From: a bacterium | Lineage (GTDB): Bacteria; Vulcanimicrobiota; Vulcanimicrobiia; Vulcanimicrobiales; SCRA01 | Length of the DNA stretch: 39,792 bases | Assembly (NCBI GenBank): GCA_004297985.1 | Contig: SCRA01000064.1 | Span: 1 to 39,792, forward strand | Reading direction: 5' to 3' | Shown here: positions 9,496 through 33,074 of the stretch, in pieces | Position numbering within the stretch: position 1 is the stretch's first letter | How the letters are laid out: each line of letters starts with the position of its first letter | Notes under the pieces: generated by a model | What the model saw: the letters and a program-made list of their open reading frames with translations, nothing else | The model's database searches: none | What the model was told of the DNA's origin: nothing | Translations under genes and position numbers: made by a program

Positions 9496-10833
9496 TTAGC
9501 GCCGCTCGTCGCCGGGGAGGGCGAAGGCGGCCTCGAGCATCTCCTCGATGTGCACGAACTTCTCGCGTGGCTTGGCGCCTTGCGCGCGCGCGACTTCGGC
9601 GCGATCGATCTCCCGCCAGGCCTCGAAGTCGACGACGACCGCGTTTCGCTCGCGCAGCAGGCGATCGATCTCGGTACCACCGGGCTTGGGCGCACGCCCC
9701 GGCGTCTGGTCGAGCTCCGAGATGATGCGCTGTACGAGCCCTTGCGCATCGGTGCGGTTGGTTCCGACCACGCCGCGCGGTCCGTGCTTGCACCATCCCG
9801 CGGCGTAGACGCCGGGCTCGATGAGGCCCTCGTCGTTGGTCAGGATGCCGCGCGCCTCGTCGAACGGGACGCCCGGGAAGGGCGCGGTGCGATAGCCGAT
9901 CGCGGAGACGACCGTCTGCACGGGGAGCTCGAAGCGCTCCCCCGTTGGGACCGCGCGCCCCTGCTCTAGACGCGTGCGCTCGAGTACGAGCGCACGTACG
10001 CGCCCCTCGCCGAGCACCGCCACGGGTGCCGCGCAGAAGACGACGTGGAGGCGCATCGCGCGCTCGCCGCGCGGCCGCGACGCAAGCTCGCGCAAGATCT
10101 CGAGGTTGCGCTGTTTGACTTTGACTTCTTTCTCCGGCACGTGGGGGCCGACGTCGGCGGGGAGCTGATGCGGATCGACGACGACCTCGCAGCGCTCGAG
10201 ATCACCCAGCTCGCCGAGCTCCTTCGAGGTGAAGCTGGCCTCAACCGGCCCGCGCCGCCCGATGATGTAGAGATCGGTGAGGCTGGCCGCCGCAATGGCT
10301 TCGCCGGCGTGGTTGCAGATGTCGGAGGCGGCGAGCTCCGCCTGCGTCTTGGCGATCACGCGCACGACGTCGAGCGCCACGTTGCCGTTGCCGATGACCG
10401 CAAGCGCCGTACCGTCGAGCAACGGCGCGAGATCGGTATGCATCGGGTGGCCGTTGTACCAGCCGACGAACGCACCCGAGCCGTAGACGCCCCGCAGATC
10501 GTCACCGGGAATGCCGAGCGGGCGATCGACGGCGGCACCGATGCTCAGTACGACGACGTCGTAGGCCGCCTTGAGCTCGTCGTAGGCGAGATCGCGCCCG
10601 ATCTCCACGTTGCCCAAGAAGCGCGTGCCCGGGCGGCTGAGCGTGCGCTCGAACTGCCTGGTGACGTTCTTGGTGCTCTGGTGATCGGGCGCGATTCCAC
10701 CGCGTACCAGCCCATACGGTGTGGGAAGGCAGTCGATGACGTCGATGGCGACATCCGGGAGAAGTTTGGCGAGCGCCTCCGCGACGTAGAGTCCGGAGGG
10801 TCCGCTGCCGACGATGGCGATCTGCTGGCTCAA
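9496..10833 (-). CDS. fprA: Ferredoxin/flavodoxin-NADP+ reductase, FprA (adrenodoxin reductase) family
   Basis: A flavoprotein of about 445 residues that passes electrons between NADPH and ferredoxin. The FAD motif VGSGPSGLY is at the N-terminus. PTPYGLVRGGIAPDH is the FprA signature, VIGNGNVALDVVRV is the NADP-binding loop, and GWCKHGPRGVVGTNRTDA is the conserved C-terminal FAD segment. Start choice is uncertain. The frame begins with ATG at 10896, which would place 25 residues before the FAD motif. TTG at 10833 with upstream AAGAGAGAA gives a normal N-terminus and is used here. It heads the run to the stress protein and carbonic anhydrase. Confidence 0.88.
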   Translation of the reverse strand: MSQQIAIVGSGPSGLYVAEALAKLLPDVAIDVIDCLPTPYGLVRGGIAPDHQSTKNVTRQFERTLSRPGTRFLGNVEIGRDLAYDELKAAYDVVVLSIGAAVDRPLGIPGDDLRGVYGSGAFVGWYNGHPMHTDLAPLLDGTALAVIGNGNVALDVVRVIAKTQAELAASDICNHAGEAIAAASLTDLYIIGRRGPVEASFTSKELGELGDLERCEVVVDPHQLPADVGPHVPEKEVKVKQRNLEILRELASRPRGERAMRLHVVFCAAPVAVLGEGRVRALVLERTRLEQGRAVPTGERFELPVQTVVSAIGYRTAPFPGVPFDEARGILTNDEGLIEPGVYAAGWCKHGPRGVVGTNRTDAQGLVQRIISELDQTPGRAPKPGGTEIDRLLRERNAVVVDFEAWREIDRAEVARAQGAKPREKFVHIEEMLEAAFALPGDERR

Positions 10834-29619: not shown

Positions 29620-30741
29620 CTACGACGCGATGACCGGCGCCGCCTGATGCGTGCGATAGCGCTCGATGACGCGGGGATCGGGATCGTGCCCAAGGCCCGG
29701 ACCTTGCGGCACGGAGATGAGTCCGTCGACGGCGTCCGTCGCTTGCCCGTATGGGCTCGCCTCGAGGTCCATGTAGAGGCGTTCGAAGACCGTCTCGCTC
29801 GGAAGGGTCGCCGTGATGTGCAGCGTGGCCAGGAAGCCCGGGCCGAAGTACGCGCAATGCGGCACGACGGCGACATTGTGAGCCTCGGCGAGCGCCAGTA
29901 CCTTGCGGGTCTCGCTCACGCCTCCCACCTTCGTCACGCTCGGCTGTGCGATGTCGACGGCTCCGGCGTCGAACATGCGCTTGAACTCGCCCACCCATGA
30001 CGCGTTCTCTCCGGCGGCGATCTTCATCGGTGCCTGTGCGCGAAGGTCCGCGAGTGCGGCGAAGTCCTCGGGTGGAAAGAGCGGCTCCTCGAGCCACTCG
30101 AGGTCATACTGGGCGAGATGCTCGGACATCGTTCGCGCCTGCGCAGGTGTCCACGGGCAGTTCGTATCCAGCATGAGCGCCACGTCTGCGCCGGCGGCTT
30201 CGCGCCCCGACCTCACGTTCGGCTCGGCGATCTCGTGCAGTTTGATGGCGCGATAGCCGCGGTCGAGGGCATCAGCGACATTGCGCGCCACCAGGTGCGG
30301 ATCGCCGTAGCGCAGGAGGCTCGCGTATGCGGGTACGTGCGTGCGCCCCGCTCCACCCAACAGACGATAGAGCGGCAGACCGGCCTGTTTGCCGGCGATG
30401 TCCCAGAGCGCGATGTCGATGGCCGAGAGCCCGTACGGAACCAGCCCGCTTCGCCCGAAGAGGTGAAGGCTATGCTGGAGCGCGGCCATCAGCTCGCCGA
30501 TCTGGTCGGCCCCGCGACCGATGCACAGCGGGGCGATCATCGTATCGATGGTCGCCTTGAGAGCGTGACAGGCATTGTGGCCGAAAGGCTCGCCCCACCC
30601 GCTGATGCCGGCGTCGGTATCGACGCGGACGAGCAGCATCTGAAGCGACGTCCACGCGCTTCCGCCGACGAACGCGGTGGGCGGACCACCGTTCGTATAC
30701 GGGATGCTGAGGACGGTCGTCTCGATGCTCGTGATCTTCAT
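29620..30741 (-). CDS. Mandelate racemase/enolase-superfamily enzyme coupled to senB
   Basis: A 373-residue TIM-barrel enzyme that abstracts a proton next to a carboxylate. Metal ligands are D192 (LDTNCP), E218/E219 (LEEPLFP) and E245 (AAGENAS). The acid/base set looks like the mandelate racemase subgroup: K167-x-H169 (AIKLHE) on one side and the D263/H295 dyad (VDIAQP, VPHCAYFG) on the other. The substrate is probably a hydroxy or sugar acid, or an amino acid derivative. Its ATG overlaps the senB stop (ATGA), so the two are translationally coupled. The link to selenium metabolism is unproved; a role in sugar-acid catabolism is the alternative. Confidence 0.85.
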   Translation of the reverse strand: MKITSIETTVLSIPYTNGGPPTAFVGGSAWTSLQMLLVRVDTDAGISGWGEPFGHNACHALKATIDTMIAPLCIGRGADQIGELMAALQHSLHLFGRSGLVPYGLSAIDIALWDIAGKQAGLPLYRLLGGAGRTHVPAYASLLRYGDPHLVARNVADALDRGYRAIKLHEIAEPNVRSGREAAGADVALMLDTNCPWTPAQARTMSEHLAQYDLEWLEEPLFPPEDFAALADLRAQAPMKIAAGENASWVGEFKRMFDAGAVDIAQPSVTKVGGVSETRKVLALAEAHNVAVVPHCAYFGPGFLATLHITATLPSETVFERLYMDLEASPYGQATDAVDGLISVPQGPGLGHDPDPRVIERYRTHQAAPVIAS

Positions 30742-31706
30742 GTGGGAGCTTTTTGGTGTACCTCGGCGATGAGCCTCTGCCAGGCCTTGCGTTCCTGCGT
30801 GGGGCGCACCAGCGGCGCGAGGCGCCGGCACCAACGCCGCAGGCCGGCGTAGAACGCGCGGTCGCGCTCGGCGCGCTCGAGCAACTCCGCCAGGCCGCGC
30901 GTGTCGCCCGTAGGATAGAGACCCGGATAATCCGCCCCCAAGACGCCGCGCGTTCCCCCGATGTTGGAGCCCAGGATCGGCACGCCCGCCGCCAACGCCT
31001 CCGAGACGACGTTTGCGCCCCCCTCGCTGCGGGAGCTGACCACCAGCAGGCGGCATCCCGCCAAGAGGCGTTGCGCACGCGCATGGCTCACTTCACCCAA
31101 CCATTGATACCGGGGGTTGCGCGCCATCTCTCGGTGCGCGCGTTCCTCATAGCGCGGCTCGAGTGCGCGGCCGGCTTGCAGCACCTTGATGCGAGAGTCT
31201 TCCGGCATCAGCCGTGCCGCCATCGCGGCGCGAAAGGGATCCTTGACGGCCCGCAGATTGCCTAGGACCACCACGCGAAAGTCGCCGCTCGTGCTGAGCC
31301 GCGCCGCGCGCGGATGTGCGGTGGCCGACTGGATGATCGCGCGCGCCTTGCTGCGCAGGTGCGCGGGGAGCTCACGGATGCCTTCAGGCTGGAGGAGCAC
31401 CAGCCGCGTTGCCAGCTCGAGCGATCGGCGGGCCGCGGCGCTGCGCCCGATATCGTGATAGAGATCGGTTCCCGTGAGCGCGACGATGAGTGGACGCTCG
31501 GGATAGAGGCGGTGGAAGCGCGAGGCGGACGCGGCGCTGCGCCGTGCATGCAGGGCGATCAGCGCATCGCAGGGGCGTCCGTCGTACCGCTCCTGCAGGC
31601 GCACGCGGTGACCGAGCGAGCGCAGCAGGCGTGCCCAGCGTCGTGCCGTGACGGCGTTTCCGTTGACCGCTCCGGGGCGCGCCGGGGAGATGATGTCGAC
31701 GGTCAC
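30738..31706 (-). CDS. senB: Selenosugar synthase SenB (TIGR04348-type glycosyltransferase)
   Basis: A 322-residue GT-B glycosyltransferase. The N-terminus IISPARPGAVNGNAVTARRW, then LIALHARRSAASASRF, and IVALTGTDLYHDI are characteristic of SenB. SenB couples selenophosphate to a UDP-sugar to form a selenosugar, the selenium donor for selenoneine. The C-terminal donor site has the E-x7-E motif in SEGGANVVSEALAAGVP. The GTG at 31706 is chosen because it gives the family N-terminus; TTG at 31742 is an alternative. It diverges from senA across 57 bases. SenC, the selenophosphate synthetase partner, is not in the window. Confidence 0.86.
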   Translation of the reverse strand: MTVDIISPARPGAVNGNAVTARRWARLLRSLGHRVRLQERYDGRPCDALIALHARRSAASASRFHRLYPERPLIVALTGTDLYHDIGRSAAARRSLELATRLVLLQPEGIRELPAHLRSKARAIIQSATAHPRAARLSTSGDFRVVVLGNLRAVKDPFRAAMAARLMPEDSRIKVLQAGRALEPRYEERAHREMARNPRYQWLGEVSHARAQRLLAGCRLLVVSSRSEGGANVVSEALAAGVPILGSNIGGTRGVLGADYPGLYPTGDTRGLAELLERAERDRAFYAGLRRWCRRLAPLVRPTQERKAWQRLIAEVHQKAPT

Positions 31707-31740
31707 CGGGAGGGTGGCCTTGGTTTGGCGTGAATCATGC

Positions 31741-31759
31741 AAGACATAGGAGAAGTCTT
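31741..31759 (+). promoter_or_regulatory. Hairpin exposing the senA ribosome binding site
   Basis: In the divergent senB-senA gap, AAGAC (31741-31745) and GTCTT (31755-31759) are exact inverted repeats. The nine-base loop between them contains TAGGAGAA, the ribosome binding site of senA. Such a small hairpin could tune translation, but a five-base stem is weak. No clear -35/-10 pair was seen in this gap. Confidence 0.35.
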
Positions 31760-31763
31760 ACGT

Positions 31764-33074
31764 ATGCCGCAAGCGGTTGAATCTCCCGCCGTCGCCGTCG
31801 AGGCCCTCACCGATGCTCGCCTGCGCACGAACGCTCTGATCGAGGACTTGGCGGACGAGCTGTTGCGCGTGCCGCTCGTGGAGAACGTGAACCCGCTGCT
31901 GTGGGAGATCGGCCACATCGCGTGGTTCCAGGAATACTGGCTCCTGCGCCGGCTCCATGGGAAGGAGCCGCTCGATACGCGGACGGACAGTCTCTACGAT
32001 TCGGCGGCGGTGGCTCATGACACGCGCTGGACGCTGCCATTGCCCGATCGCTCTGGGACGCGGGCCTACATGGAGGAGACGCTCGCACGGGTTGTCGCCA
32101 TGCTGGAGCGCAGCCCGCACGCTCAGGGAACGCGATACTTCCGGATGCTGGCGACCTTCCACGAAGACATGCACGCCGAAGCGCTGCTCTACACGCGGCA
32201 GTTTCTCGGCTATCCCGCACCGCCGTTCGTCACGGCTGCGGCTGAAGAAGCGCCTGCGGGTGCGCTGGAAGAGAGCGACGCCGCCATCCCCGGCGGCCAC
32301 TTGATGCTAGGAGCGAACGCGGAAGACGGCTTCGCGTTCGACAACGAGAAGTGGGCGCACGCGGTATTCGTCGCGCCGTTTCGGATCGCGCGGACTCCCG
32401 TGACGAATGCGGCCTATGCGCGCTTTGTCTCCGAAGGCGGATACGCGCGCCGGGAGTTGTGGAGCGCGCAGGGATGGGCGTGGCGCTCCGAGCGTGGCGC
32501 GGAGCACCCCGCATACTGGCGGCGCGGCGAAGACGGAGGCTGGGAGCAGCGGCGCTTCGACCGTTGGATCGCGCTGCGCGGCGACGAGCCGGTGGTGCAC
32601 GTCTGTTGGCACGAGGCGCAGGCTTACTGCCGTTGGGCGGGGCGCCGCCTGCCCACGGAGGCGGAGTGGGAGTACGCCGCGTCGATGACTTCCGACGGAG
32701 AGAAGCTGCGCTACCCGTGGGGCAACGATGCCCCGACGCTGCTGCATGCCAACCTCGATCAAGCACGGGGCAACGTCGCCCCGGTGTGGGCGTACGGCGC
32801 GGGCGACAGCCCCTGGCGCTGCCGGCAGATGGCCGGCAACGTCTGGGAGTGGACGGCGGACCCGTTCGAGCCCTACGCGGGCTTCGTGGCGGACCCCTAC
32901 AAGGAGTACTCGCAGCCGTGGTTCGGCACGCACAAAGTGCTGCGCGGCGGCGCCTGGAGCACACGCGCGCGGCTCATTCGCAACACGTGGCGGAACTTCT
33001 ACATGCCGCACCGCACGGACGTCGCCGCCGGTTTTCGTACCTGCGCGCTCACCCCGGGCGAACGCGATAGATGA
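31764..33074 (+). CDS. senA: Selenoneine synthase SenA (EgtB-like)
   Basis: A 436-residue non-heme iron enzyme. The DinB-like N-terminal half has H51 (WEIGHIAWFQEYWLLR) and the H133-x3-H137-x-E139 motif (FHEDMHAEA), the iron site of EgtB-type sulfoxide synthases. The C-terminal half is a formylglycine-generating-enzyme-like domain (RIARTPVTNAAYARFV, PTEAEWEYA, MAGNVWEWT, LRGGAWSTRA). SenA joins a selenosugar to trimethylhistidine to build selenoneine. The assignment over EgtB rests mainly on the adjacent senB. The ATG at 31764 with AGGAG nine bases upstream is chosen over 31737. It overlaps the convergent lipoprotein gene by 26 bases. Confidence 0.82.
   Translation: MPQAVESPAVAVEALTDARLRTNALIEDLADELLRVPLVENVNPLLWEIGHIAWFQEYWLLRRLHGKEPLDTRTDSLYDSAAVAHDTRWTLPLPDRSGTRAYMEETLARVVAMLERSPHAQGTRYFRMLATFHEDMHAEALLYTRQFLGYPAPPFVTAAAEEAPAGALEESDAAIPGGHLMLGANAEDGFAFDNEKWAHAVFVAPFRIARTPVTNAAYARFVSEGGYARRELWSAQGWAWRSERGAEHPAYWRRGEDGGWEQRRFDRWIALRGDEPVVHVCWHEAQAYCRWAGRRLPTEAEWEYAASMTSDGEKLRYPWGNDAPTLLHANLDQARGNVAPVWAYGAGDSPWRCRQMAGNVWEWTADPFEPYAGFVADPYKEYSQPWFGTHKVLRGGAWSTRARLIRNTWRNFYMPHRTDVAAGFRTCALTPGERDR

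Follow-up and report, generated by a model that had tools for sequence, protein, structure and literature searches.

The locus studied here raises the question of whether a senB-senA pair with no senC beside it can be a selenoneine biosynthesis locus. The reactions leading to selenoneine have been established for Variovorax paradoxus (PMC10702425, PMC9814287), whose sen cluster encodes SenA, SenB and SenC (PMC10891094, PMC10702425). The window, that is, the whole stretch of 39,792 nucleotides analyzed, is an entire contig (G000:C54) of a 3.19-Mb draft genome (96% complete, 90 contigs) of Ca. Eremiobacterota. The original prediction, made from the window, was of a divergent senB/senA pair for selenoneine biosynthesis, in which either a housekeeping SelD serves instead of SenC or the product is a different chalcogen histidine.

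The senB-senA pair and its neighbors

The pair has the following features.

30738..31706, minus strand: senB, predicted Se-glycosyltransferase (selenosugar synthase) of GT-B type, GTG start; assigned by TIGR04348, PDB relatives and catalytic residues
31707..31763, no strand: 57-bp spacer between the divergent starts
31764..33074, plus strand: senA, predicted non-heme iron selenoneine synthase with DinB_2 and FGE-sulfatase domains, ATG start; assigned by NF041186, Pfam, PDB relatives and trees

The longest open reading frames begin further upstream (senB 30738-31742 on the minus strand from TTG 31742; senA 31737-33074 on the plus strand from ATG 31737) and overlap by a few bases. These starts were dropped in favor of GTG 31706 and ATG 31764 on the basis of an AGGAG sequence 11 nt upstream of the latter and of a relative, L046, in which the senA alignment begins only at residue 10. 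With these starts the gap is exactly 57 bp, and the predicted head-to-head arrangement was borne out. No sigma-70-type promoter was found by a consensus scan of this spacer. The predicted lack of a nearby senC also held: no selD/senC-like gene was detected among the neighboring genes scanned, and genome-wide selD matches lay on other contigs only.

On the other side of senB, an enolase-superfamily dehydratase gene (29620-30741, minus strand) overlaps the senB stop by ATGA, which suggests translational coupling. This gene was retained in the congener G030, was found close downstream of senB in G029, and was missing from another congener, G031; because of this last absence, an operon role with senB was rejected.

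Identity of the two enzymes

The senB product scored 389 bits against the TIGR04348 equivalog model (cut-off 300), matched Pfam Glycos_transf_1 and had the SenB structures 8jjq, 8fbx and 8k5u as PDB relatives (E about 1e-56 for 8jjq and 8fbx). It is 42% identical to V. paradoxus SenB, whose mutated residues served as reference (PMC10891094). In this alignment the window protein retains N20, T23, H58, R61, T83, T85, D86, Q131, R155, K158, E231 and E239, among them the catalytic K158, the complete donor triad (N20/T23/E231) and the complete SeP pocket (N20/H58/R61/T83/T85/R155). One further position, H235 in V. paradoxus numbering, is Asn. Accordingly, where beta-proteobacterial SenBs are reported to have the motif EGGAHV, the window protein and its relatives have EGGANV. 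Across 16 SenBs of many different phyla the consensus was EGGAN, so the EGGAHV motif is not universal; and since H235 mutants retain partial activity (PMC10891094), it was not counted as family-defining. The assignment as a SenB-type glycosyltransferase was therefore upheld by the equivalog score and the catalytic residues, and clustering with unrelated GT4 enzymes was not what we found.

The senA product, with Pfam domains DinB_2 and FGE-sulfatase, scored 515 bits against the NF041186 equivalog model (cut-off 420). Its H-x3-H-x-E motif is HEDMHAE, with an additional conserved His in WEIGH; the iron-ligand His residues and the HxxxHxE pattern are thus retained, in agreement with the predicted EgtB-like enzyme of SenA type. 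PDB relatives included OvsA, SenA and EgtB.

Since the protein is homologous to EgtB (337 bits against TIGR03440) and the genome contains egtD, it could be argued that it is an ordinary ergothioneine EgtB whose neighbor is an unrelated GT4 protein, adjacent by chance. We consider this very improbable. The EgtB score is below the cut-off of 360, and the ergothioneine sulfoxide synthase EgtB (PDB 4x8b), although of the same domain family and with the same three-His iron site, is 38% identical to the window protein. The residues at the gamma-Glu-Cys pocket positions of EgtB, W415-D416, differ as well: they are Phe-Tyr in both the window protein and OvsA, and Phe-Phe in V. paradoxus SenA. Two trees, of 69 and 42 proteins, placed EgtB apart from SenA and OvsA with support of 99* and 100/100, respectively, and put the window protein inside the SenA/OvsA group, so the predicted SenA did not cluster with EgtB. 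As for the neighbor, other GT4 proteins of the same genome reached at most 51 bits against the SenB model, which argues against an unrelated glycosyltransferase.

The distinction between SenA and OvsA, the selenoxide synthase of the ovoselenol pathway (PDB 8ux5), was finer. OvsA selenates histidine and acts on C5 of histidine. A SenA-like enzyme acting in this way on the SenB selenosugar would give an ovoselenol-type product, that is, a different chalcogen histidine. OvsA, about 42% identical to the window protein, was its top PDB match by score, and phmmer gave 331 bits against OvsA and 284 against V. paradoxus SenA (about 46% identical, with catalytic residues and gene adjacency alike), a difference mainly due to the lack, in V. 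paradoxus SenA, of a roughly 50-residue loop that the window protein keeps. Moreover, OvsA itself exceeds the NF041186 cut-off (434 vs 420 bits), so this cut-off alone cannot prove selenoneine, and caution is needed because the NCBIfam SenA model by itself does not part SenA from the ovoselenol enzyme. The OvsA branch had no settled position relative to SenA, and topology alone does not separate the two.

However, three other lines of evidence favor SenA over OvsA, which makes the histidine-directed reading unlikely. The TIGR04373 signature (cut-off 71) gave 97 for the window protein and 94 for V. paradoxus SenA, compared with 57 for OvsA. At 21 of 21 positions that are conserved at 90% or more in 62 SenB-adjacent SenAs and differ in OvsA, the window protein has the SenA residue. 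Finally, every one of the 27 SenB-positive genomes in the phylum has egtD, and this gene adjoined senA/senB in L162, L227, L194, L218 and L219; in L162 (Bacterium HR08), the nearest relative outside the phylum, senA, senB and egtD run in the same direction. These three lines share common ancestry and are not fully independent. The suggestion that the pair makes another chalcogen histidine is accordingly disfavored.

Partner genes and the predicted pathway

One stand-alone selD was found in the genome, on contig C7 (381-387 bits, cut-off 125), with an in-frame UGA for Sec in the motif SSCAG-U-ASK. Two weaker selD matches proved to be thiamine-phosphate kinase ThiL and PurM, and a hidden second SelD was dismissed. 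An Rfam search around selD found nothing. On contig C72, selA (553 bits) lies beside selB (304 bits), so reading the UGA as Sec is plausible. The same contig carries egtD (TIGR03438, 315 bits, cut-off 291), a source of hercynine. The lone selD thus agrees with the suggestion that a housekeeping SelD serves instead of SenC, and a genome devoid of selenophosphate synthetase, which would have counted against the pathway, was not what we observed. Whereas V. paradoxus has a clustered SenC, the genome of the window has an unlinked, Sec-containing housekeeping SelD.

The reactions and the product of the pair are predicted here by homology. SelD from contig C7, itself a selenoprotein, would convert selenide to selenophosphate, and SenB would form a 1-selenosugar from this and a UDP-sugar. 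EgtD from contig C72 would trimethylate histidine to hercynine. SenA, with its iron on three His residues, would then link C2 of hercynine to the selenosugar, yielding a selenoxide that would collapse and be reduced to selenoneine. One stand-alone SelD would supply both Sec-tRNA synthesis and selenoneine, so that no dedicated SenC would be needed. Taken together, the equivalog matches, residues, phylogeny and partner genes indicate with high confidence that the pair encodes two dedicated selenoneine biosynthesis enzymes served by this SelD, as the original prediction had proposed. We infer that the pathway is complete but dispersed in this genome. It is an ordinary dispersed selenoneine pathway and a further member of a known family.

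Several other genes in this genome may be related to the use of selenium or betaines. A PhnDCE-like ABC transporter (L014:6593-9750) lies directly upstream of the Sec-containing selD (about 9747-10796); its binding protein scored 234 bits against TIGR04553, 'putative selenate ABC transporter' (cut-off 250), and the transporter and selD are a possible selenium uptake operon. At L013:9602-14069, egtD converges with genes for an OsmF/ProV/ProW-like ABC transporter, which could take up a betaine, for example ergothioneine, hercynine or selenoneine. A second EgtB/OvoA-like protein is encoded on contig C30 (L070:7193-8446; OvoA-N 198, SenA 176 and EgtB 166 bits). In several relatives, genes with similar scores adjoin egtD; the cell may therefore produce ergothioneine as well as selenoneine, both perhaps from one hercynine pool. 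The presence of this separate EgtB-like gene also argues against the window protein being the ordinary EgtB.

Distribution and dispersal of sen genes

SenB was detected in 27 of 149 genomes of the phylum. SenA above the cut-off (plus one fragment) was detected in 24 genomes, all 24 with SenB, and in none of the 122 SenB-less genomes, although these counts, like all co-occurrence counts in the phylum, ignore relatedness. In the three SenB genomes in which SenA was not detected, the short contig carrying SenB stops at the place where senA is expected. Such perfect co-occurrence is difficult to reconcile with chance adjacency of an EgtB and a GT4 protein.

The location of selD varied. It lies directly beside senA in five senB-senA loci (L047-L050 and L052), and nine others have it at a distance of one gene, for a total of 14; in 13 of these 14 genomes it is the sole selD match, and it nearly always contains UGA. 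Therefore, a housekeeping Sec-SelD fills the SenC role in this phylum, and in the genus of the window it is unlinked from senB-senA. G084 has senA together with selD, and its senB lies on a different contig. Co-occurrence of selD and SenB was not significant (p = 0.07) because selD is common, and it was not used as evidence.

Given that selD is unlinked in this genus and linked in many relatives, one might suppose that the pair is a decaying remnant which lost its selD linkage and belongs to an inactive pathway. There is little to recommend this view: both open reading frames are intact with catalytic residues retained, selD is intact with its UGA, and the window proteins are 73-92% identical in two congeners. 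The congener G030 (98% complete) is also instructive. Its senB (locus L045) lies between the same neighbors as in the window, and the resident senA is gone. The sole SenA of G030 is on another contig (L204:5977-7302) and belongs to a clade without adjacent senB; the gene beside it resembles, by eye, an IS605-type OrfB transposase. It looks as if the resident senA was replaced by an acquired one. This apparent replacement speaks for SenB requiring SenA as a partner, and the retention of senB alongside a SenA from a different clade is suggestive of selection maintaining the function rather than of decay.

A further gene accompanies the sen genes in relatives. Many Eremiobacterota have, between or beside senA/selD, a permease that matches Pfam ArsP_1 (120 bits); it was present in 20 of 27 SenB-positive genomes compared with 3 of 122 SenB-negative genomes. 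In 12 of 23 genomes it contains one in-frame TGA. In the nine TGA-form permeases that were read, the TGA is at the first Cys of GMM-C-TCC and homology runs past it. Locations of the two forms were as follows.

L047:11103-12125, TGA-form permease
L048:4628-5650, TGA-form permease
L049:11201-12259, TGA-form permease
L050:11295-12350, TGA-form permease
L052:11272-12291, TGA-form permease
L053:8846-9874, TGA-form permease
L056:882-1928, TGA-form permease
L060:10164-11198, TGA-form permease
L068:10510-11547, TGA-form permease
L057, L059, L061 and L065, Cys-form permease

A hairpin starts about 15 nt after the permease UGA; the alignment gave no covariation support for it. For the related SO_0444 family of Cu/Zn efflux proteins, a recent review includes a UxC selenoprotein (PMC13188914); the ArsP_1 permeases score far below the SO_0444 model (35 vs 300 bits). 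From its sequence, this permease is a candidate Sec-containing protein tied to selenoneine synthesis. A genome search found no ArsP_1 permease in the genome of the window. We tentatively propose, at somewhat less than even confidence, that one Sec-SelD feeds both selenium uses, that many sen loci add a Sec permease (GMM-U-TCC) handling a selenium compound, and that the genus of the window keeps senB-senA without the permease.

Outside the phylum, one scan of public genomes yielded 80 SenA loci, spread over many phyla, which were compared with flanks of up to 6 kb on each side. senB was adjacent in 63, mostly in divergent orientation. A selD-like gene was nearby in 22 of these 63 loci and none was seen in the other 41, in some of which the flanks are cut by contig ends. 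When 37 genomes of loci with no nearby selD were searched whole, 31 had a selD-family gene elsewhere; in 21 it was a stand-alone selD, and in 10 the sole form was a long fusion with an open frame of at least 600 residues. A separate SenA clade spanning many phyla (100* support; L192, L200, L201, L205, L207, L214, L216, L225, L230, L232, L234 and L235) mostly has no adjacent senB, and in 12 of 14 such genomes senB is elsewhere. No conserved partner genes were found around this clade, apart from a second EgtB-like paralog in a few loci. Thus, with no selD nearby in 41 of 63 loci and senB elsewhere in 12 of 14 genomes, dispersal of the pathway is common.

The long fusion was the only selD-family gene in the sen-positive genomes G167, G169, G171, G176-G178, G188, G190, G194 and G196. 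NCBIfam TIGR04369 sets such fusions apart as 'not SelD'; they may be the only source of selenophosphate in these genomes.

Our analysis extends a complete, dispersed selenoneine pathway, as predicted from gene content, to Ca. Eremiobacterota. With a selD-family gene located elsewhere in 31 of the 37 genomes, a senB-senA pair that lacks a neighboring senC should not be taken for a sign of an incomplete pathway, as a lone housekeeping SelD is usually present elsewhere in the genome. If the Sec-containing permease is real, it would give a first indication of dedicated selenium transport associated with the synthesis of a selenometabolite.
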